Of a DNA stretch of 64,000 bases, positions 2,477 to 52,262 are shown one piece after another. The notes under the pieces were generated by a model, which searched no databases, had not been told where the DNA came from, and was given only the letters and a program-made list of their open reading frames with translations. Origin of the DNA: Bacteroidota bacterium (GTDB lineage: Bacteria; Bacteroidota; Ignavibacteria; Ignavibacteriales; Ignavibacteriaceae); contig JAKAGZ010000002.1 of the NCBI GenBank assembly GCA_021815365.1, forward strand, positions 62,001 to 126,000, given 5' to 3'. The translations under genes were made by a program, and so were the position numbers. How positions within the stretch are numbered: position 1 is the first letter of the stretch; every line of letters starts with the position of its first letter.

Positions 2477-4882
2477 TCACCTTATCAAAACCATCTTCTT
2501 CACCATAGTATAATTCCCTGCCGTCAGGCGATAAAAATATATCCCGCTTGCCAGATTGCTTCCATCAAATTTTACTATATAGTTCCCGGCGGGTTTTTCT
2601 TCATTCACCAGCGTTGCAACTTCCCTTCCTAAAACATCATATACCTTTAGCGATACAAATACTCCGCCTGAGGCGGAAGGAATCCGCCCGCTTTGAGCGA
2701 GGTCTCGTCCCGAAGGGACGGAAAATTCGATATTCGTAGTAGGATTGAAAGGATTGGGATAGTTTTGTGAGAGCTCAAATTTTAACGGAGTTAATTTTTC
2801 TTCATCAATCCCTGAAACACCTGCAACTTTTAATGTATAATTTAAAGTATCTGCATAGCCATTCTTACTCTTTGCAATAACTGCAACCTGGTAACTTGTG
2901 TCGATGCCCGGCGCAGTTCCTCTAACAAAGCCGGAATCTTCCTGAATGCTCAACCACTGCGGATAATTGCTGCCTAATGTGAATGTTGTTGTGTCTGCAA
3001 ACTGATGATAAGCTCTGAACCTTTGTTCATAGTATGCGCCCTTTGGTATTGAATCAAGCGGGACAGTGTAAATAACAACCGGGTAATCATAGATATGCCA
3101 GCTTATAGAGGCTGTGTCTTTATCATTTTTTGCATACCCTGTTACTGTAAACTGTTTCTTATTTATAGAACTTTCTTTATTGGTAAAAGTGTAATTCGAC
3201 CCAGAGGAAACCACTGTTCCATCAACTTTCCAGAAATAATTTAAAGACGTTTGCAATGCAGGGAAAGGATTTTCAGCAGTAAAAGATAATTGAATTGTAT
3301 CACCGGGCGCAATTACAGTATCCCGTATACTCAGGTAAACAGGATCAGCATTCCTGTAAACAAAATACTTCTGGTATGGACTCCACGATAATATTTCAGG
3401 AGGAAATCTGTTTTCTGTAAACTTTTGATAAACATTCATAGTTATCTTTTCGACAATTGTATCGGGGGTAATGCCTGCATTGGCATCAGTCAGCAAACCG
3501 TCAGCCCAGTCTGTTGTTGCTGCATTAAAGACAGCGCCTTTGTTAGTGTTCTGTGCATAATACATGCCCATCGTTGCATGCCCGAATCCAACAGTAGTAT
3601 CATAATTCACAGTTGGAGAAAAACCAAATATTCTGAAATTGACCGGAGTTTTTGATTGATCAGTATTGATTGGAACACCTAATCCTTTTGCGTCCCAACC
3701 TGTCGGTGTACCATCGGCTTCATATCCAACTATAGCATTCTTATAACCGAATTCATCGCCTTCTCTCAATCCTGTTCCGTTAAATAACCAGTAATGTGTG
3801 TTAAATGCAGTATAGTCTCCGAACCCTTGTGACTTCGGAAGCTTGTTCCCAGAATTAACGTAACCTCCATCTTTAAAGTTAACACCGGTAAAACTATTTT
3901 CGGGATTGTTTACAGGAGACTTCCACCAATTTACTGTGATCAGAGAATCAGGAATAGTTGGATTGGCATTTCTGTCGGCAGCGGAATCTTTATAGCAAAC
4001 CATTGTGCTGCCATTATTCTCAAATCTCACCTGCCACCAGCATGTATTGCCTGAGAGTATAATTACTTTCCCACCGTTCCTGATAAATTGTTCACACTGC
4101 TGTCTCTCAGCTATCGACCAATACTCATTATGACCGACTATGAAAAGAACTTTATACCTGTTGTTATTTCCTGTGTCAAACAGAAAATTCGGATCCCTGT
4201 CAAGGTCGTACATTGAAGCATACTCAAGCGGAATATTATTCAGTGTTGTCCAGTTAATAAATTTCCTTTCGTATTTATAAAAGTCTGCGCTGCCCAGCGA
4301 ACCGAGCGGACGATTTGCAGGTCGGCTAAAAGAAACTTTAAATGACCTCTGATGATTAGTAGAAATATTATTATACAGACTTTTCCCTCCGTAATCATTG
4401 TATGCCTGCCAGGTGTTCGTTGCAATCAGCAATAAATTTGAAGAAGTGCTTGCCAGTATTTTCGGTTTTACAATAAATAATATACCGCTTACACTGTCGC
4501 TCATATTTGTGGTACTGTCATAATAAGTTCTGAATTCAGCGCGGTAAACGCCAGGTGACCAGTTAAGCGGAATTGTAATACCGAAAGTCGAATCCCAGCC
4601 GCACCCGTACCAGTAAGTGCTGTCGCTGTGAAGTGAAGTAGTCTGAACCCTAAACTGTACATTAGTGTATGCCGTTACATAGTGGGCAATGTCTGTTATC
4701 TGATAAATTGTAAGTGTATTAGATTTTGTGGAAGAAGAAATATAGAAGGTAATCGGGTCACCCTGATAGACAGAATAACTACTGCCGTATCCTCCTTCTA
4801 CTTGCTGCGCATTCGTTTCATAAGAGATATTAAACGATAAAAATATTGCCGCTGCAAAAACTTTGTTGAAGATACTTCCCAT
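2477..4882 (-). CDS. T9SS-secreted protein with N,N-dimethylformamidase large-subunit-like domain
   Basis: 801 aa. A signal peptide covers about residues 1-25. An Ig-like N-terminal part (to ~140) precedes a region with NTWQAYNDYGGKSLY, KVLFIVGHNEYWS and GGKVIILSGNTCWWQVRF, characteristic of the domain shared with the N,N-dimethylformamidase beta (large) subunit. After ~510 come Ig/cadherin-like segments (PVYLSIRDTVIAPGD; a putative-Ig segment near 650-720), then NYPNPFNP and a T9SS sorting domain. I infer an exported protein; whether it hydrolyses amides is not known, as the family is functionally broad. Oddity: the sorting domain contains an extra ~20-residue insert (GRDLAQSGRIPSASGG) encoded by a hairpin-rich element at 2661-2723, absent from the sister sorting domain at 613-1863. 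Confidence 0.8.
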   Translation of the reverse strand: MGSIFNKVFAAAIFLSFNISYETNAQQVEGGYGSSYSVYQGDPITFYISSSTKSNTLTIYQITDIAHYVTAYTNVQFRVQTTSLHSDSTYWYGCGWDSTFGITIPLNWSPGVYRAEFRTYYDSTTNMSDSVSGILFIVKPKILASTSSNLLLIATNTWQAYNDYGGKSLYNNISTNHQRSFKVSFSRPANRPLGSLGSADFYKYERKFINWTTLNNIPLEYASMYDLDRDPNFLFDTGNNNRYKVLFIVGHNEYWSIAERQQCEQFIRNGGKVIILSGNTCWWQVRFENNGSTMVCYKDSAADRNANPTIPDSLITVNWWKSPVNNPENSFTGVNFKDGGYVNSGNKLPKSQGFGDYTAFNTHYWLFNGTGLREGDEFGYKNAIVGYEADGTPTGWDAKGLGVPINTDQSKTPVNFRIFGFSPTVNYDTTVGFGHATMGMYYAQNTNKGAVFNAATTDWADGLLTDANAGITPDTIVEKITMNVYQKFTENRFPPEILSWSPYQKYFVYRNADPVYLSIRDTVIAPGDTIQLSFTAENPFPALQTSLNYFWKVDGTVVSSGSNYTFTNKESSINKKQFTVTGYAKNDKDTASISWHIYDYPVVIYTVPLDSIPKGAYYEQRFRAYHQFADTTTFTLGSNYPQWLSIQEDSGFVRGTAPGIDTSYQVAVIAKSKNGYADTLNYTLKVAGVSGIDEEKLTPLKFELSQNYPNPFNPTTNIEFSVPSGRDLAQSGRIPSASGGVFVSLKVYDVLGREVATLVNEEKPAGNYIVKFDGSNLASGIYFYRLTAGNYTMVKKMVLIR
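2661..2723. repeat. In-frame hairpin-rich insertion element inside a sorting domain
   Basis: GC-rich stretch in AT-rich DNA made of three short hairpins with 3-base loops: CCGCC-TGA-GGCGG (2664-2676), CGCT-TTG-AGCG (2689-2699) and GTCCC-GAA-GGGAC (2707-2719). It contains GCGAGGTCTCG, also present at 52038-52048 in an unrelated place. It keeps the reading frame open and adds about 20 residues to the sorting domain. Confidence 0.7.
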
Positions 4883-4891
4883 AGTAACTCC

Positions 4892-5641
4892 CTATAAATT
4901 TCTTTGTCTTAAAATTTCAAAAAGCAATATGCCAGCCGCAACTGAAACATTTAACGATTGAATTTTCCCTTTCATAGGAACATTAACCAGCATATCACAA
5001 TTTTCGGCAGTGAGTCTTCTTATTCCTTTTTCTTCATTGCCTAGTACAAGCGCAGCCGGAACTTTATAATCAACTTCAGTATAACTGCGGGAATTTTCAA
5101 GCGATGAACCGATTATCCAGAACCCGTTATCCTTCAATTCTTTTAAGACATTCACGAGGTTATTCACCGGACATATTTTTAAATACTCTGTGGCTCCCGC
5201 TGAAGTTTTTACTACTGTTTCATTCACAGGTGCGCTGTTATGTTTTGTGATGATCACCCCGTGTACCTCTGAACATTCGGCAGTTCTGAGAATAGCCCCG
5301 AGATTATGCGTATCCTGAATAGAATCAAGAACCAGCACAAGCGGATATTGAAATTTTTTGGAATGTGAAATTACTTCTTCAAGGGTGTAAAATTTCTGTG
5401 AGGATTTTTTTGCAACAACCCCCTGAGTATTTTTTTGTTTTGCCGGTTCATTTCCCGCAGGGACGAGTTCGCGGAATTTTTGTGCCGGAATTTCGTTGCA
5501 CTTTATCCCTCTTTTTTTTGCAGCAATCCGGATAGCATTTATTATTTCCCCTCTTTGTCCGTAAAGAAGATAAACCTGGTCGATCTCCTCTCCTGAATTT
5601 ATCGCTTCAAGCACGGGTCTTCTTCCGATTATTAAATTCAT
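4892..5641 (-). CDS. rlmB: 23S rRNA (guanosine-2'-O-)-methyltransferase RlmB (TrmH/SpoU family)
   Basis: 249 aa, the usual length. The N-terminal substrate-binding domain (1-75) starts MNLIIGRRPVLEAI. The SPOUT catalytic domain shows the three family motifs: motif 1 LDSIQDTHNLGAILRTAEC (~107-125), motif 2 VLGNEEKGIRR (~198) and motif 3 VPMKGKIQSLNVSVAAGILL (~219). These build the deep trefoil knot that binds S-adenosylmethionine. The family methylates the 2'-O of G2251 (E. coli numbering) in the peptidyl-transferase region of 23S rRNA. It lies 9 bp downstream of lgt, probably in the same transcription unit. Confidence 0.92.
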   Translation of the reverse strand: MNLIIGRRPVLEAINSGEEIDQVYLLYGQRGEIINAIRIAAKKRGIKCNEIPAQKFRELVPAGNEPAKQKNTQGVVAKKSSQKFYTLEEVISHSKKFQYPLVLVLDSIQDTHNLGAILRTAECSEVHGVIITKHNSAPVNETVVKTSAGATEYLKICPVNNLVNVLKELKDNGFWIIGSSLENSRSYTEVDYKVPAALVLGNEEKGIRRLTAENCDMLVNVPMKGKIQSLNVSVAAGILLFEILRQRNL

Positions 5642-5649
5642 TTCTAAAA

Positions 5650-6540
5650 CTAATTTTTATTCTTTTTATTAGAGGACTGACTTAAAATTGCACCCGAAGG
5701 AATAAATTTCTTCAGATCTTTATGTCTTGAATAATAATTTAAGCCTATCATTCCCACAATTATCATTACAACAGAAATAAGCTGCGCTTCGCTTAGTCCA
5801 AGCATCAATCTCGGATTCAGCCTGATGAACTCGATAAAGAATCTTTCCAGTCCGGCAAATACAAGGTAATACATAAAAAGCTTGCCGTCAGCCCACTCTT
5901 TCTTTCTCAGTTTCCAAAGAATAAAAAAGATTATAACAGCCATTATGAATTCATAAATCGGAGCTGGGTGAAGCGGCGTGTTATCGGGAACGCCGTTCGG
6001 GAAATGTTTTGCTATGTCAGGAAAATATTTCTGAAAATCAAAACCTCTGAACATTACCGAAGGCGGCACTGTGCCATGAGAATAATCTGTTCCCCAGGGA
6101 AGATTAGTCGGCACACCGTAATCACCATCTCCTGCAAGATGGCAGCCTATTCTCCCTATGCCGTAAGCAAGAATTAATGACGGCGACGCTGCGTCAGCAA
6201 CTACAAGGAAAGGAATTTTCTTTCTTCTTAAATAAATCCATATTGAAATAATTGCAAGTATCAGTCCGCCGTAAAAAGTTAAGCCGCCGGGAGAAAAAGC
6301 AATCAGGGGATCTTTTAAAAAAGCATCCCAGTTCTCTATCAAATCAAGAAGCTTGCTGCCAACAATTCCGAAAATTATTGAGAGAAGCGTTATCTCGGTT
6401 GCCAGGTTCTGATCAAGTTTTTTTCTTTCAAATTCTTTTCCGAGAAAATAGCTCGCTACAATAAATGCTATTCCGAGCATTAAACCGTAGCTGTAAACCG
6501 TAAAAGGACCAATCTTAAATAATTCAGGATACATTACCAA
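5650..6540 (-). CDS. lgt: Prolipoprotein diacylglyceryl transferase Lgt
   Basis: 296 aa, about seven membrane segments. It opens MVMYPELFKIGPFTVYSYGL, the conserved Lgt N-terminus; the signature GRIGCHLAGDGDYG corresponds to GRxGNFxNxExYG, with the catalytic arginine region, and HPAPIYEF matches the HPxQLYE motif. Lgt moves diacylglycerol from phosphatidylglycerol onto the lipobox cysteine of prolipoproteins in the inner membrane. Many lipoproteins in this window (nirK, nosL, cytochrome c, FGE-like, phosphatase) would be its substrates. The start overlaps the end of the upstream gene by 7 bp, pointing to translational coupling. Confidence 0.95.
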   Translation of the reverse strand: MVMYPELFKIGPFTVYSYGLMLGIAFIVASYFLGKEFERKKLDQNLATEITLLSIIFGIVGSKLLDLIENWDAFLKDPLIAFSPGGLTFYGGLILAIISIWIYLRRKKIPFLVVADAASPSLILAYGIGRIGCHLAGDGDYGVPTNLPWGTDYSHGTVPPSVMFRGFDFQKYFPDIAKHFPNGVPDNTPLHPAPIYEFIMAVIIFFILWKLRKKEWADGKLFMYYLVFAGLERFFIEFIRLNPRLMLGLSEAQLISVVMIIVGMIGLNYYSRHKDLKKFIPSGAILSQSSNKKNKN

Positions 6541-11341: not shown

Positions 11342-14110
11342 TTATTTCATTAATGTCATCTTCATAGTCTTTACATAATTATCCGAGCTTATCCTGTATA
11401 CATATACTCCTGAACTTAACTTACCAGCATCAAAATTAATTGAGTATTCGCCTGCCGGTTTTACTTCATTTACCAGCGTTGCTACTCTTTGCCCTAACAT
11501 ATTATAAACTTCTAAATTTACTAAACCCGAAGAAGGAATAGAATATTTAATCACAGTAGAAGGATTAAAAGGATTCGGATAGTTCTGATATAAATCATAC
11601 TTCAAAGGCTGTGTAACTGATAGCTCGCTTGTTATTTTTCCTTTACCTAATGAAGGATCGGGAGTTTTCCATTTATCGAATGTTCTTATTACAATCACAG
11701 CAAAGTCACCGCGTGTAACAATATTTGCAGGCTTGAAGCTTGCGTGCAGCACCGGTGACAGATCATAAGGTCCCTGCTGCAGACTGAAATAAACGTTGAT
11801 CAGGTTCATATCAATTGCAAGCTGTACGTAACCTTTCATATCATCCGGTATGCCGGAGGCATCATCAATTGGAATGCTCTGGTCCCGATAGTGAGCTTTG
11901 ACCTCTGTGCCGGCAAGTGCTTTAGCCTTATCCTGTATTCCCATAGATTGCACCATAGAATATGCAACATCAACTCTGTTCACTGTACCGAACGGATTGA
12001 ATATTCCTGATGAAGCCGGCAGCATTACCCCATCAGCAACCTGGAATCTGTCGCGAAGAGCGGCTCCTCTTGCAGTAACTGATTCGACTGCTAAAGTCTG
12101 ATCGGGTGCAACGTCAGTGAAATGCGTTGAACCATCTGTCGGAAGATATTGACGAATGCCCTGGCCCATCATCATATAATTTGCCAATTCAATTCTTGCC
12201 AGATTATTTGCAGGCTTGAATGTACCATCAGCATATCCATCTATTAATCTCTCGCTGACAGCAAGCTTGATCGCATTCTCTGCAGGGTTACCGGAAATAT
12301 CATTTAATCCTGAGTAGCCCGTAAATTTAGTGAACTTAGCTATCCCGCTGATTTTTTCGGGAAATGCCGGAACTGTAGCTACACCAAAATCAAACAACGC
12401 TGAGATCTTTAGTGTCCATGTTCCCGGGATTGGATTTAAAACTGTAACTGCTCTGTCCTGGAAAATCGGGAAGAACACATAAATATCTGAATGATACTCA
12501 CTACCATCAGGTGCATACAAACCAACATCAACTGGGTTTCCCTCAAGACCGGTTTGACCTGCAGCAAATGCTAAAACATAAAGCACGTTCTGTCCCTGGG
12601 GCACCTGGAAAGTCCAGGAATTATTATCAGATGAAAGTGAAGCGACAGGGTTAAAATCAACAGTAAAAAATTGCAGTTGAACATCAGACGTTAAATTACT
12701 GTTAAACTTTTTATTCATATTTACTGAAGAACCATAAGCTGCATGCCTGAAAACATAATCAACTGCTGCGTAGGCATTTATATAACCTGCACCGACTTCC
12801 CACGCTTCGTGGTTAGGCATATTGGTAGCTGTAAGTTCAATAACAGATTTTACTTCATCCGGAGTAAGATCAGGATTGGCTTGGAGAATCAATGCTGTTA
12901 TGCCTGCTGCGTGCGGGCAAGCCATTGATGTTCCGCTTAAATGAGTATAATACGGAAGGTATGCCGGTTCAATTGATGTGTCAGACGGTGATTCTAAAAA
13001 TGCAACCGGTGCAATTGTCCTTGTCGAAACAACATCTAATCCCGGTGCTGTAATCGTCGGCTGATCCTGGTAATAGAAACTCTGCCCATCAATTGTAAAA
13101 TAATAATTATCTCCTTTTATACCCCTTGAAGAAAAATCAACAAGATTACCATATTTATCACCAGCAGCAACTGTGATTACCCATGGTGCGGCATAAGGCG
13201 ATAACGTAGATTCAAATGGTCCGCTGTTGCCGGCAGAAAACAGAACTGTTATTCCATTTTTATACGCCAAGTAAGTAGCGACATTTACAGGATCATTAGG
13301 GTCAAACCTTCCTGAAGTCCCCCATGAATTAGAAATAATTTTTATTCCATATTTTTTTTGGTAGGTAATCCCATAATCAAAACCGCCTAAGACATCGAGC
13401 ACAAGTAATACTGCACCGGAGCCATAGCCAACTAAATTGGCGCCCGGAGCTACACCCTGATATTTGCCTTTCGATTTTGCACCAGTGCCTGCAATTATTC
13501 CAGCTACGTGTGTTCCGTGACCGGAGTTATTATCCGTGTTCGGTATATTTTCAATATAATTGATCGGAAGCATATCGCTGTAAGCGTGCGGGTTAGCGGT
13601 ACCTAAAACATTCTGTAAAACGTGCGAGCCGAAAGGCAGATCAGGATGAGTAGCATCAATACCGCTGTCGTTTACAAGTACAGTTACTCCTTTACCCGAA
13701 ACAGGCAAGCCTCCATTTCTTGTGGTGAGCGTCTGATCATTTCTCAATCTGTCAACACCTGTTAAAGCTCTGCTGTTGTTGTTAAAATATTCAAGCTTGC
13801 TGTTAAGATATAAGGATCTTACCTGGGAATTTTTTGATAAGGCATCAACCTGCGCAGCAGTTGCAAGAACGCCTGCGATTGGCAAAGACCTGAAAGTAAG
13901 CCCCTGTATAATGCCAGCCTGTTTTAACACAGAAATTTGTTCTGCTGTCGGAGCGCTGTTTCCCTTAAAAGTTACAACTACTTCGAGCGGAGATACTGCA
14001 TTCACGAGCGCTTCTTTCAATCGCTGATCTATAACAGCCTGTGCAAAAGCTGTTTGTAAAAATGAAACCTCTAAAATTATAAAAAGAAAAATCTGTAAAG
14101 TCTTTTTCAT
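11342..14110 (-). CDS. Subtilisin-like S8 peptidase with SLH domains and T9SS sorting domain
   Basis: 922 aa. A signal peptide (~1-24) ends AFAQ. An inhibitor-like propeptide follows (~25-110). The S8 catalytic domain has the triad in order: Asp in VNDSGIDATHPDL (~148), His in SGHGTHVAGI (~198) and Ser in LSGTSMACPHAAG (~395). A P-proprotein-like beta region (~465-610) is followed by three SLH-like segments (NAIKLAVSERLIDGYADGTF; TVNRVDVAYSMVQ; VTRGDFAVIVIRTF) and a T9SS sorting domain with NYPNPFNPSTVIKY. Predicted: exported serine endopeptidase kept at the surface. Near-copy of the gene at 14259-17042 in domain order and sequence, so a tandem duplication. Confidence 0.9.
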   Translation of the reverse strand: MKKTLQIFLFIILEVSFLQTAFAQAVIDQRLKEALVNAVSPLEVVVTFKGNSAPTAEQISVLKQAGIIQGLTFRSLPIAGVLATAAQVDALSKNSQVRSLYLNSKLEYFNNNSRALTGVDRLRNDQTLTTRNGGLPVSGKGVTVLVNDSGIDATHPDLPFGSHVLQNVLGTANPHAYSDMLPINYIENIPNTDNNSGHGTHVAGIIAGTGAKSKGKYQGVAPGANLVGYGSGAVLLVLDVLGGFDYGITYQKKYGIKIISNSWGTSGRFDPNDPVNVATYLAYKNGITVLFSAGNSGPFESTLSPYAAPWVITVAAGDKYGNLVDFSSRGIKGDNYYFTIDGQSFYYQDQPTITAPGLDVVSTRTIAPVAFLESPSDTSIEPAYLPYYTHLSGTSMACPHAAGITALILQANPDLTPDEVKSVIELTATNMPNHEAWEVGAGYINAYAAVDYVFRHAAYGSSVNMNKKFNSNLTSDVQLQFFTVDFNPVASLSSDNNSWTFQVPQGQNVLYVLAFAAGQTGLEGNPVDVGLYAPDGSEYHSDIYVFFPIFQDRAVTVLNPIPGTWTLKISALFDFGVATVPAFPEKISGIAKFTKFTGYSGLNDISGNPAENAIKLAVSERLIDGYADGTFKPANNLARIELANYMMMGQGIRQYLPTDGSTHFTDVAPDQTLAVESVTARGAALRDRFQVADGVMLPASSGIFNPFGTVNRVDVAYSMVQSMGIQDKAKALAGTEVKAHYRDQSIPIDDASGIPDDMKGYVQLAIDMNLINVYFSLQQGPYDLSPVLHASFKPANIVTRGDFAVIVIRTFDKWKTPDPSLGKGKITSELSVTQPLKYDLYQNYPNPFNPSTVIKYSIPSSGLVNLEVYNMLGQRVATLVNEVKPAGEYSINFDAGKLSSGVYVYRISSDNYVKTMKMTLMK

Positions 14111-44639: not shown

Positions 44640-45026
44640 TTGAATGAAAGAGTAAAATATTGGATCGATATTGCGGAATATGATTTGGAAACCGCAGATG
44701 CAATGCTTGAAACCAAAAGACTTTTATATGTTGGTTTCATGTGTCACCAAACGATTGAAAAAATACTCAAAGGATATTATCAATTTAAAAAGAACACCAT
44801 CCCACCATATACCCATGACCTTGAAAGAATAGCATCTGAATCTTTGATCTGGAGTTCGCTTTCAACTGAACAAAAAAACTTGGTTAATTTCCTCCAACCA
44901 TTGAATATTCAGGCAAGGTATCCGAGCTATAAAGAAAAAATATTTTCATCCTTAGATTATGATAAATGCAAAGATTTAGTTATGCAAACAAAGGAATTTG
45001 TAAAGTGGATAAAAAAGCTGTTATAG
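44640..45026 (+). CDS. HEPN-domain protein (toxin-like partner of MNT)
   Basis: 128 aa. The start appears to be TTG (44640); the nearby ATG at 44644 is out of frame. MNERVKYWIDIAEYDLETAD, then YVGFMCHQTIEKILKGYYQF (~30-49) and KNTIPPYTHDLERIASE, are the HEPN family pattern; a conserved RYPSY sits near the C-terminus. HEPN proteins often act as RNases in toxin pairs; the partner MNT gene overlaps its 3' end by 22 bp. Confidence 0.85.
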   Translation: MNERVKYWIDIAEYDLETADAMLETKRLLYVGFMCHQTIEKILKGYYQFKKNTIPPYTHDLERIASESLIWSSLSTEQKNLVNFLQPLNIQARYPSYKEKIFSSLDYDKCKDLVMQTKEFVKWIKKLL

Positions 45027-45316
45027 AGATTGCTAAAAAATATTCGGAAGAGATCCGAAATTTTCTGCCTGTAAAGAAAGTGGTATTATTTGGTTCTTTC
45101 GCACGAGGCGATCAAAAGGAACACAGCGATATTGATATAGCTGTTATAGTTGATAAGATTATAGGTGATTACTTAGATTTAAGTTCAAAACTTTTTAGTG
45201 TTCGATATCCAATCGATTTAAGAATAGAACCTATTTTATTCGAAGAGGGTTATGATCCGAGCGGCTTCCTGGAAGAAATTTACAGAACAGGAATAGTTGT
45301 ATATCAGGCAGCTTAA
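45005..45316 (+). CDS. MNT-type minimal nucleotidyltransferase (antitoxin-like)
   Basis: 103 aa with GTG start at 45005, since VDKKAVIEIAKKYSEEIRNF is the natural N-terminus and overlaps the HEPN gene. The motif VVLFGSFARGDQKEHSDIDI (GSx10DxD) is the catalytic site of the polymerase-beta-like fold. MNT partners in HEPN/MNT pairs can AMPylate and thereby silence the HEPN toxin; in this pair this is inference. Confidence 0.87.
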   Translation: MDKKAVIEIAKKYSEEIRNFLPVKKVVLFGSFARGDQKEHSDIDIAVIVDKIIGDYLDLSSKLFSVRYPIDLRIEPILFEEGYDPSGFLEEIYRTGIVVYQAA

Positions 45317-49132: not shown

Positions 49133-49266
49133 GTATAACGTTTAGGCAACACGCCGTTGCTTTTTGCCGGCTATCAACAAACCAATTCTACTTGCGCCAA
49201 AAGTAATGGAGCGACAACTATAATCCATTTTTAAAAAATAGAGCGTCGTGGTTACGTCTGTTAGGC
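49133..49266 (-). other. attC-like site 1 (after the kelch cassette gene)
   Basis: On the minus strand, 12 bp after the stop at 49279, GCCTAAC (R-double-prime box) begins a ~134-bp imperfect palindrome ending in GTTATAC (R-prime box, cut after G). Inner arms AACCACGACG and CAACACGCCG resemble each other when folded. The centre TTTTTAAAA..GTCGCTCCAT (49206-49238) is shared with site 2 (50929-50960). Confidence 0.6.
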
Positions 49267-49278
49267 GCAGTTGCCCGC

Positions 49279-50820
49279 TCACCGCAAAAGCAAGAGTTTC
49301 TTGGTTTCAATGAAACTACCTGTTTGCAAGCGGTAAAAATAGACACCGCTTGGAATAGTTTCTGGATTCCACCACACCCGATGTCGTCCTGCCTGTTCCA
49401 GTTGGTCAACGAGCGTGGCGACTTTCTCGCCCAGGATGTTGTATATCTCGAGCAGAACTCTGGATTCGCGTGGCAACTCGTAGACAATTTGAGTGGCTGG
49501 GTTAAACGGATTTGGATAGTTCTGTGACAGTGAATACTTAGTTCCGAGAGCGGATTGTTGAGAAATACTTGTGGGAACGGAGGCCGTCACAAAGAACCTT
49601 TGTGGCGATTGTGGACCGTAGCCGCCGGGGTTTCTTGCGGTAACTCTCCAGAAATACATCGTGCTTGTATCGAGACCGGCTATTGTTAGAGTTGTATCGG
49701 TTATGACTGTGTCAATTATGGGGTTTGAAATGTAAAGTTCAACGCGGTATCTGTCTGCGTCGTTGACTGCCCTCCAGACTAGAGAAGTTGTTGTGGGAAT
49801 ATTGACATTACTGTCCTTAGGACTGACTAAATCTGGTGCAACTGATGGTGGAAAGAATCTTGAATCCCATACTGGGTTGAAATTTGGCAATCTCGCAAGA
49901 GCGAATGTAGTAGGTGGATACAGTATCACGTACTTATAGGCATTATCGGCTCGGAGAGGAGTCCTTCGGGTTGTCCACTTGCCAGTCGAAGGTAAGTATA
50001 GAGCCATCAAGGAGTCAATACCTCCGTTGACCTGAAAAAGCGTATCTCCCCATGAAAAAACGGTATTTAGATATCCGCGACCTATGATGGGATGCGAACT
50101 CAATACTTTAAACTGATTGTTTGATGGGTTAAACTCGGTAAAAGTATTAGGAGCTTGTCCGTAGTCTCCTCCCAAAATGTAGATCTTTCCGGCATGACTT
50201 CGCACAACCGGTTCTTGGGAGGTTTGTATTGGACCATTATATGATACCCAGTTGATCCCGTCTGATGACTTGAATACTCTGAGAGTTTGGTCAATACGAC
50301 CTGTTGTAATGCCATAAATGGTGTCGTTAAGTACTGTAAAAACATTGTAGCCGTCGTCCCATTCAAACCCAACGTTTTTAACAGGGATGAGTCGAACCCA
50401 TTGCAGAGATGTAAGATTGAAAACGCAAATGGTGTCTGGGCCGCCATTCCACAGTGATTGAGAACGGCCTCCGATAACATATAGGGAGTCAGCTATCCTC
50501 AGGAGCGCCCCATTGTATCTGCCAATTGGCATGTCGGGAAGTTGTTGCACTTGGGCGGTGTGGATATTAACGCGGATGAAATGTTTCATGTAGTTCCAGT
50601 TAGCGTCTGCTCCGCCTGCTATATATAGGAAACTATCAACCTGAGTGGAGAAGGATAGGTAGAATGACTGTGGAAGCGGAGAGAAAACTGGAACAACTTC
50701 TTGGGCGTGCAATGAGTGAAGTAACAGAACAGAACCAAGAATTAGACGACAAAAGTTGCGCGTTAATCCTAACTTAAGCAGCGATCTGGCAACGTCTGTA
50801 ATGCGGAAATTGTGTCTCAT
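49279..50820 (-). CDS. T9SS-secreted kelch-like protein in an integron cassette
   Basis: 513 aa from ATG 50820, chosen for the GAGGATAACTTT-ATG ribosome site; a frame extension of 11 codons is ignored. Signal segment (~13-38), then kelch/Galactose-oxidase-like repeats (GRYNGALLRIADSLYVIGGR, KIYILGGDYGQAPNTFTEFN), a FN3-like domain (~340-430: SPKDSNVNIPTTTSLVWRAV) and NYPNPFNP plus a sorting domain. The codon use and base composition look richer in G+C than the flanking genes. Placed between two attC-like sites with its start 36 bp from the cassette end, as in integrons. Unusual for a cassette. Confidence 0.8.
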   Translation of the reverse strand: MRHNFRITDVARSLLKLGLTRNFCRLILGSVLLLHSLHAQEVVPVFSPLPQSFYLSFSTQVDSFLYIAGGADANWNYMKHFIRVNIHTAQVQQLPDMPIGRYNGALLRIADSLYVIGGRSQSLWNGGPDTICVFNLTSLQWVRLIPVKNVGFEWDDGYNVFTVLNDTIYGITTGRIDQTLRVFKSSDGINWVSYNGPIQTSQEPVVRSHAGKIYILGGDYGQAPNTFTEFNPSNNQFKVLSSHPIIGRGYLNTVFSWGDTLFQVNGGIDSLMALYLPSTGKWTTRRTPLRADNAYKYVILYPPTTFALARLPNFNPVWDSRFFPPSVAPDLVSPKDSNVNIPTTTSLVWRAVNDADRYRVELYISNPIIDTVITDTTLTIAGLDTSTMYFWRVTARNPGGYGPQSPQRFFVTASVPTSISQQSALGTKYSLSQNYPNPFNPATQIVYELPRESRVLLEIYNILGEKVATLVDQLEQAGRHRVWWNPETIPSGVYFYRLQTGSFIETKKLLLLR

Positions 50821-50857
50821 AAAGTTATCCTCTATATGTTTGGTAGTGTGCAATTGT

Positions 50858-50990
50858 AGCTAACGTGTGCGAAAACGATGCCGTCCCGCCAACCGCTCGA
50901 AATAGATTTATTCAACACGGCTGGCGGGATGGAGCGAACTCTAAAATCAATTTTAAAAAGCGTAAGCGTCATTGTTTTTCGCTGTTATGT
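50858..50990 (-). other. attC-like site 2 (after the 4-TM cassette gene)
   Basis: Minus strand, about 18 bp after the stop at 51009: ACATAAC box, arm GCGAAAAACAATGACG, a long inner stem (CATCCCGCCAGCCGTG pairing with GCGGTTGGCGGGACGG), arm CATCGTTTTCGC and GTTAGCT box. The arms GCGAAAAACAATG and CATCGTTTTCGC pair nearly fully. This is the clearest attC-like structure of the window. Confidence 0.75.
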
Positions 50991-51008
50991 GCAGTACCGT
51001 GCGTAACT

Positions 51009-51662
51009 TCATCTATAATAATATAGAACAATCTTTTTGTGAAACGAACAGATGACCCAAAATGAACCGAGAAAACTAAAACCACCAAGCATACCTAATA
51101 CAAGCGAACTAATTTCAATCGATTCTCCATTGAATAGAAGGTTCTCTTGCCAGAGTTTGGATAAATAGATTAAAATTAGAAGAAGCTGGAAACCAACAAA
51201 TGAGATACTGAAAATGGAGTGAAAGTTGGGCATCCACTTTATGAAAAGGTAACGTTCCTTATTGTGTTTCTTCTCTTTGTATCTCTTGGAAGGATTAAAA
51301 CTTGTAGGGAACACTTTCCACTTGTCCAAAGTGCCCGTGTCCTCCGTAACTTTGGCTTTTTCACGAATGATAGCGTTGATCAGTTGATCCCTTCTGAATC
51401 CAAGAGCCAGAGATGAAATCAAACTGACCCCCAAGAGCAACATTACTTCGGCTGTAGAAAAAGCTGCTGAAAACTCCAGAATGCTAATCCTGACACCGCT
51501 GTCTGGTTTACCTTCACCAAACGTTACTAATGCAAAACCAACTAGGACTGTCAACAAAATTGAGACTACTTGGACGAAAAGATTCTGATGGTTGTTCTGG
51601 TTTTGTGCAAACTGTTCGTTAAACGATTTGAGTATGTCGGCTTTGTATTGGTCCTTTTCCAT
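51009..51662 (-). CDS. Four-helix membrane protein in an integron cassette, unknown function
   Basis: 217 aa from ATG 51662 (MEKDQYKADILKSFNEQF); a TTG five codons earlier is possible. Four predicted helices: ~30-50, ~72-92 and, after a Lys-rich cytoplasmic loop (~100-140), ~148-170 and ~185-207. No known domain recognised. It is bounded at both ends by a 17-bp inverted repeat (ACGGTATTGCACATAAC at 51683 and its near inverse at 50984) typical of the R boxes of cassettes. Cassette genes often encode orphan proteins of this kind. Confidence 0.65.
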   Translation of the reverse strand: MEKDQYKADILKSFNEQFAQNQNNHQNLFVQVVSILLTVLVGFALVTFGEGKPDSGVRISILEFSAAFSTAEVMLLLGVSLISSLALGFRRDQLINAIIREKAKVTEDTGTLDKWKVFPTSFNPSKRYKEKKHNKERYLFIKWMPNFHSIFSISFVGFQLLLILIYLSKLWQENLLFNGESIEISSLVLGMLGGFSFLGSFWVICSFHKKIVLYYYR

Positions 51663-51692
51663 AAAGTCATAGATCAATTAGGACGGTATTGC

Positions 51693-51774
51693 ACATAACT
51701 ATAGTAAAAATGCCTTATGCCGTTTTTGCAGCCAATTAAGGATGCTATACGCCGTTTTGGCGTTTAAGTTATTT
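51693..51774 (-). other. Weak attC-like site 3 at the outer end of the cassette run
   Basis: Minus strand: AAATAAC box, TTAAACGCC arm, GGCATTTTTA arm and GTTATGT box. The GTTATGT end matches the R boxes of cassette 2. It is shorter (82 bp), and includes a direct repeat (CAAAACGGCGTATAGCAT / CAAAAACGGCATAAGGCAT), so it could be a degraded site or a foreign target. Confidence 0.35.
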
Positions 51775-52262
51775 TTAGATTTAATGCCTGATCTAATTGC
51801 TTTACCATTTTTTCCTGCTTCATCCATCAATTTTCTCACAGTTTCACTGCGTGAGTCACAGTCAATAAAATGACGGGAGAAATTATTCGTGATCTTGTTT
51901 TTCTTTATACGTTAACCTGCTGTTTGGCACACATTGGTCGCTATATGAGAAGAAGTTCCGCCATTGCTGAAAGTAAATTAGAAGAAATGAGGGATAGAGT
52001 CAAGAGATTACAAAATTACATGATTACCCGCCTTCGGCGAGGTCTCGCACGGCGGACAAGATTGCAAAATTATGTCGTTCAATTGCCACAGGATTAATTG
52101 TTGTTCTTTCAAATTGTGTAATCTTGTAATTTTTTAATCTTGTAATTTTGAAATCGTTAAGTCCCTAAAAAAAGATTTTTACCACTAAAAGATAATTGGT
52201 GTTTTAACACAGCAGTTCTTTTCGTAGTTTTAATTTGAATCTAAAAGATCTGAAAGGTAGCC
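51775..52262. other. Gene-poor region between cassettes and the type III PKS operon
   Basis: About 490 bp. It holds a 42-codon minus frame (stop 51699, ATG 51827) and a 75-codon plus frame (51870-52097), neither recognised. Repeats of AATCTTGTAATTTT occur at 52120-52133 and 52136-52149, with inverted partners near 52006 and 52058. A hairpin element lies at 52027-52056. Just before the PKS start is an AAAGGTAGCC ribosome site. Confidence 0.5.
52027..52056. repeat. Hairpin element with GCGAGGTCTCG core (intergenic)
   Basis: CGCC-TTC-GGCG (52029-52039) then GCGAGGTCTCG, and outer CCGCC / GGCGG. The core is identical to that of the element in the T9SS gene at 2697-2707. Confidence 0.7.

Follow-up and report, generated by a model that had tools for sequence, protein, structure and literature searches.

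The attC-like sites and cassettes of the window

The window, by which we mean the whole 64-kb stretch of an Ignavibacterial chromosome that was analysed, carries, flanked by ABC transporter and type III PKS genes, two minus-strand genes in head-to-tail order, each of which is followed by an attC-like site that starts 12 bp beyond the stop codon in cassette B and 18 bp beyond it in cassette A. The features of this region are as follows:

49133-49266, minus strand: attC-like site of cassette B, 134 bp, with R'' GCCTAAC and R' GTTATAC
49139-50863, minus strand: cassette B, from the TT of GTTAGCT to the G of the last R'
49279-50853, minus strand: cassette B gene, 524 aa, its start codon within the cassette uncertain
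50858-50990, minus strand: attC-like site of cassette A, 133 bp, with R'' ACATAAC and R' GTTAGCT
50864-51698, minus strand: cassette A, from the TT of GTTATGTGC to the G of the next R'
50984-51001, minus strand: 3' terminal arm of cassette A, which contains R'' and pairs with the cassette's own 5' arm
51009-51677, minus strand: cassette A gene, 222 aa
51682-51699, minus strand: 5' terminal arm of cassette A, GTTATGTGCAATACCGTC, with A at position 11 where the 3' arm gives G
51700-51763, minus strand: possible attI-like region, with the palindrome ACGCCAAAACGGCGT

The two sites are real attC-like sites that bound two minus-strand cassettes. A scanner for AAC...GTT boxes, box complementarity and inner-arm pairing, applied to both strands of the window, returned its two highest scores at 49133-49266 and 50858-50990, and the R''/L''/L'/R' architecture of attC was recovered in both by the scanner, by arm alignment and by a covariance model of the two sites themselves (R1). 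Their inner arms, aligned as GTAAC[C]ACGACG / CGGCGTGTTGCC in the first site and GCGAAAA[A]CAATG / CATCGTTTTCGC in the second, are 11-12 bp long with one unpaired base each on the minus strand; a long hairpin is predicted for the site of cassette A, and a 48-nt stretch is common to both sites at 73% identity. The site of cassette B, being itself part of the training set, scored 139.7 bits with R1 and 125.6 bits with R3, a model that combines the R1 sites with two further loci from the genome. These results agree with the initial annotation, which had described two sites of ~133 bp, 12-18 bp after stop codons, with RYYYAAC/GTTRRRY-like ends and folded arms. The weaker third site that it had listed at 51693-51774 lacks L''/L' arms, reached a scanner score of 20 and was matched neither by R1 nor by R2 (a model of the attC sites of family integrons, see below); it is therefore not an attC, and is instead the 5' junction (GTTATGT) of the first cassette, perhaps attI-like in nature. 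Another attC-like scanner match, at 12780-12903, also unmatched by R1 and R2, appears to fall inside a peptidase-like reading frame and was taken as a chance occurrence. The Rfam search matched nothing relevant.

The 17-bp inverted repeat previously reported to bound one of the cassettes is present around cassette A (50984-51000 / 51683-51699), with 16 of its 17 positions complementary. The cassette A protein matched no family in Pfam, PHROGs or PADLOC, and its relatives among 96 related genomes amount to a single weak one plus a 36-aa fragment. The cassette B protein combines Kelch repeats, fn3 and a type IX secretion C-terminal sorting tail (Pfam PF13964, PF00041, PF18962), and this tail is also found on ~60 other proteins of the same genome. 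Among the window genes tested, no PADLOC or PHROGs match assigned a defence or phage role to the cassette proteins. The reported difference in base composition applies to cassette B (44-46% GC), but the contrast is modest and cassette A resembles the flanks (37-39%). In none of the relatives checked do the flanking ABC transporter and type III PKS genes adjoin each other, and these genomes offered no empty site for comparison. At 44640-45316, the window also carries a HEPN + nucleotidyltransferase (MNT-type) gene pair in a toxin-antitoxin-like arrangement.

A resident integron with another attC type

With two attC-like sites and no integrase nearby, the window array has the composition of a CALIN (at least two attC sites, no integrase in the vicinity). 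The absence of an integrase noted in the initial annotation holds within the window but not in the genome. The integrase it had thought worth seeking elsewhere in the assembly was found at C35:1651-2589, a full IntI (420 bits, against a cut-off of 265) that carries the I2 domain and is accompanied by another attC type, with sites of 188 and 189 bp. The C35 array (L007 = G000:C35, 1651-6290) runs on the same strand as IntI and comprises a methyltransferase gene with a companion gene, followed by a 490-aa cassette. The methyltransferase is a DNA methyltransferase, the 490-aa cassette is unannotated, and the contig ends just past the second attC. Integrons are common in this lineage, which alters the earlier impression that integron cassettes are little described there: an IntI over the cut-off is present in 24 of 80 genomes of the family, and the Ignavibacteriae have already been named among integron carriers, with CALINs also known (PMC9024848).

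The attC type of the resident integron is captured by R2, a covariance model of 32 attC sites of ~188 bp from the IntI arrays of the family, those of C35 included. The model comprises 21 base pairs, of which 13 are compensated, and leaves one base of the L'' arm unpaired. A covariance-model search had been put forward as a check in the initial annotation. R2 matched contigs C35, C34, C19, C17 and C98 of the same genome but nothing in the window, both window sites included; R1, trained on the window sites, found further sites in the genome. The long-type sites located away from the integrase in this genome (C19 8108-10911, C17:1890-2080, C34:2352-2528 and C98:153696-155412) are probably array fragments or CALINs.

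The window sites, at 133/134 bp, represent a second class, the s-type, unlike the attC of the resident integron. R1 matched a site at C98:14873-15007 (105 bits), associated with a two-gene cassette after clpB, a site at C75:45788-45918 (60 bits) and a decayed site on C94 (L127 = G000:C94, 3942-4077; 40 bits). The C98 site has one unpaired arm base, most arms in related arrays being uninterrupted over 11-12 bp. The C94 gene at 4090-6234, on the minus strand, encodes a protein that has BNR/YCF48 repeats and ends in a type IX sorting tail, and it is followed by an s-type half-site with a decayed R'; the same kind of BNR/YCF48 cassette occurs in the array of genome G269 (L187:8097-9386). In the family itself, R3 matched only scattered sites, in a small number of members; in other families of the class it matched arrays, among them those of G420:C6, G269:C1 and G269:C6.

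I2-less recombinases and the ends of the cassettes beside them

In G420:C6 and G269:C1, tandem R3 matches directly follow, on the same strand, a tyrosine recombinase that lacks the ~40-residue I2 region and is closer to IntI than to Xer. The s-type sites lie beside such an I2-less recombinase in three more genomes (G028, G294 and G150), and at loci L198, L199 and L202 they are invariably downstream of it and on the same strand. The spacing from the box I Arg to HxxR is 90-97 aa in all but three sequences (those three on another motif), compared to 133 aa in 12 of 12 IntI and 98-117 aa in Xer, and the catalytic R, K, H, R, H and Y are invariant in 28 I2-less recombinases. The best solved relative is VchIntIA (2A3V), to which the recombinase aligns in two blocks, skipping chain positions 178-240, and to which the C35 IntI aligns end to end; an AF2 model of the recombinase (pLDDT 84.6, confident over the core) likewise has 2A3V as its best fold match. 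In the tree, Xer (100), IntI (100) and the I2-less family are separate, and the latter joins IntI against XerC/XerD of the same genomes (100), with support for a single I2-less clade of 74 when the two most distant members are included and 95 without them. The family shares with XerA/XerC/XerD a box spacing without the I2 insertion, and the G420 enzyme exceeds the cut-off of NCBIfam NF040815, but the family groups with IntI, and its association is with cassette arrays rather than with a dif-like function.

Many of these recombinases are extended at the N-terminus, with ~60-100 additional residues before the SAM-like domain (L205 2121-3281, L210, L213, L219, L228, others). In both the canonical C35 integron (L007 690-1100) and the I2-less G269 locus (L187 1940-2410), the integrase gene is closely preceded by minisatellite-like repeats that contain long, repetitive reading frames. 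At L197, L200, L201, L204, L206, L208, L209, L211 and L212 the contig breaks within ~270 bp after the recombinase, as expected if repeated sites defeat assembly, and such arrays may be under-represented in drafts.

The cassettes at these loci display a characteristic signature, in which the two ends of one cassette, its 5' start and its 3' end, are complementary over ~18 nt with the exception of position 11. Positions 10-11 were left out of signature detection. Of 71 cassettes, 69 differ at position 11, 62 of them with A at the start and G in the reverse-complemented end, and positions 12-18 match at ~90%. Of the signature cassettes at 47 recombinase loci, 64 are downstream of the recombinase and share its strand, and two are upstream on the opposite strand; there are none downstream on the opposite strand, none upstream on the same strand, and none in 377 kb of IntI loci. 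A stricter count, restricted to the 45 loci found by recombinase alone and leaving out two reached through attC matches, yields 55 signature cassettes downstream, spread over 16 loci and on the recombinase strand, with none on that strand in the matching upstream stretches and 0-1 in shuffles, the strict signature being absent downstream at several Flavobacterium and other recombinase loci. Signature loci span the Ignavibacteriota, Chlorobiota, Bacteroidota, Kryptoniota and Bacillota, including cultured Paenibacillus, Cohnella and Flavobacterium. The complementary ends of family IntI cassettes stop at 10-11 nt, and in class 1 integron cassettes from two plasmids, taken as a control, complementarity stops at 8-12 nt, with no outer arm. 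In the window, the ends are complementary at 18 of 22 positions in cassette A and, more weakly, at 14 of 22 in cassette B, and position 11 is A/G in both.

Origin of the window array and its relation to integrons

The window sites match the arrays that follow I2-less recombinases; they were therefore orphaned not from a canonical integron but most probably from a parallel integron-like system. We place at about 0.78 the probability that the window holds a two-cassette array, now stranded, of an I2-less integron-like system whose recombinase is absent from this genome. The integrase-less two-cassette run of the initial annotation is thereby upheld in outline and reassigned as to its source, since the cassettes most likely derive from the I2-less system and not from a canonical integron. 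No I2-less recombinase was found in the genome, a draft of 110 contigs with 99.95% completeness in which a gap is possible, the best match being Xer-like (107.7 bits); the arrangement seen elsewhere, with the recombinase immediately upstream on the same strand, is accordingly found neither in the window nor in the genome. Searches with tblastn revealed no recombinase or IntI remnant beside the attI-like region or elsewhere in the window at E 0.2 or better, and the IntI of the genome that bears I2/patch III is that of C35, with its other attC type, and not beside the window array.

In the proposed mechanism, the I2-less recombinase would excise each cassette as a circle, which would then be inserted at a palindromic attI-like sequence beside the recombinase gene. 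In the circle, the complementary ends would pair into an outer stem of ~18 bp next to the R boxes, followed by the inner L arms; the bulge between the R boxes and the 11-12 bp inner arms is asymmetric (1-2 vs. 4-5 nt). The position-11 pair would be a G.T wobble on the bottom strand and an A.C mismatch on the top strand, favouring folding of the bottom strand, and bottom strands are predicted to fold more stably in 25 of 29 circle junctions, cassette B not among them. In canonical integrons, strand choice is made through extrahelical bases and the I2 helix; in the I2-less system, the position-11 difference might set the reactive strand in place of that contact.

The palindrome that occurs just after the recombinase gene in I2-less loci is probably the equivalent of attI. 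In the window, the palindrome ACGCCAAAACGGCGT ends 49 nt before the first cassette, a spacing identical to that of locus L203, and TTAC is found at -8 (TTAC-N4). Palindromes of this type, under a pattern defined post hoc from other loci, occur once in the 64 kb against 1.3 expected, and the chance level for the position of the window palindrome, with the pattern again chosen post hoc, is ~0.002. As an attI-like sequence the window palindrome is only suggestive, and its likeness to L203 at the same spacing would mean that a recombinase once stood at this platform and was lost. The array may have originated through loss of the recombinase gene next to its attI, or cassettes from another source may have been inserted here, either in trans or by the enzyme of the resident integron; in either case, its cassettes look immobile at present unless a recombinase acts in trans. 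Clustered short inverted and direct repeats (GATTACAAAATTAC / GTAATCTTGTAATTTT) adjoin the 5' end of the array at 52005-52155.

Insertion by the resident enzyme is also the basis of the foremost alternative, in which the window is an ordinary CALIN, made up of cassettes of the cell's canonical integron that the C35 IntI placed at a secondary attG-type site, their attC type being merely foreign. The presence of a full IntI in the genome is in keeping with this view, as are the use of diverse attC sites and the insertion at non-attI attG sites by IntI enzymes (cited in PMC12901181, PMC12444791) and the three orphan s-type sites scattered elsewhere in the genome, as expected from repeated insertion in trans. 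We nevertheless regard it as unlikely, given that the C35 and family arrays have another site type and shorter complementary ends without the position-11 signature, and that s-type arrays track the I2-less recombinase and not IntI. The 5' junction of the window tentatively looks more attI-like than attG-type. Furthermore, this alternative bears on the last insertion step only, and not on the origin of the cassettes.

The I2-less recombinase could otherwise be a phage- or Xer-type enzyme that happens to lie close to arrays operated by an IntI that escaped detection, in which case the s-type would be a variant of the canonical integron. In G119, G164 and G183, I2-bearing IntI and s-type sites do occur together, with the I2-less recombinase on a contig other than that of the s-type sites in G119 and G164, and not found in G183, where the best match (120 bits) is Xer-like. 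Against this, s-type sites occur without any IntI over the cut-off in G420, G269, G294, G320 and G150, in all of which except G320 an I2-less recombinase is adjacent or within a few kb, and no s-type site lies beside IntI in the IntI-bearing loci examined; this explanation is hence quite improbable. That the palindromes are transcription terminators or dispersed palindromic repeats after genes, with a coincidental recombinase neighbourhood, would fit their strong folding 12-70 bp after stop codons, but is barely credible in view of their GTT/AAC boundaries, the complementarity of each cassette's own ends with a fixed position-11 difference, the same-strand downstream placement (64 vs. 0) and the tandem arrays that each carry different genes.

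The I2-less system, to which the window array belongs in the preferred reading, has in common with integrons, including the sedentary chromosomal integrons of the Bacteroidota/Chlorobiota group, an array of cassettes, mostly of one gene each and in a single orientation, that has a tyrosine recombinase at one end, and sites with R''/R' boxes (RYYYAAC/GTTRRRY), L''/L' arms, asymmetric spacers and a GTT crossover box. As in the IntI arrays of the family, the recombinase is in cassette orientation. It differs from integrons in the palindromic attI-like sequence, in cassette ends complementary over ~18 nt with the fixed position-11 difference, instead of 10-12 nt in IntI cassettes, and apparently in an extrahelical L-arm base that seems not to be conserved in its sites and is present in the IntI-type consensus of the family. 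Its recombinase lacks the I2/patch III insertion by which surveys define IntI (PMC2426708, PMC9668308). By origin, the window array would be a CALIN of this I2-less system, of which no description was found in the open-access literature, preprints and most subscription papers lying outside the search.

The additional domain has been held necessary for IntI activity, and surveys accept as IntI only those proteins that carry it (PMC2426708, PMC9668308), so that any array driven by an I2-less enzyme would escape notice or be recorded as a CALIN. Arrays beside an IntI-like enzyme without this supposedly essential domain bear on integron evolution, where it has appeared paradoxical how attC sites could precede the additional IntI domain (PMC4792948). 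Tentatively, and with somewhat less confidence than doubt, I2-less recombinases and their attC-like arrays may be viewed as the living form of a system ancestral to integrons, in which folded sites would have arisen before I2 and strand choice would first have operated through the position-11 mismatch of a longer stem; alternatively, I2 was lost from an IntI. If active, these systems would add gene-capture platforms in groups thought to be nearly integron-free (Paenibacillus and other Bacillota, Flavobacterium and other Bacteroidota), with cultured strains available, and would make it possible to test directly by what route the recombination of single-stranded cassettes came about.
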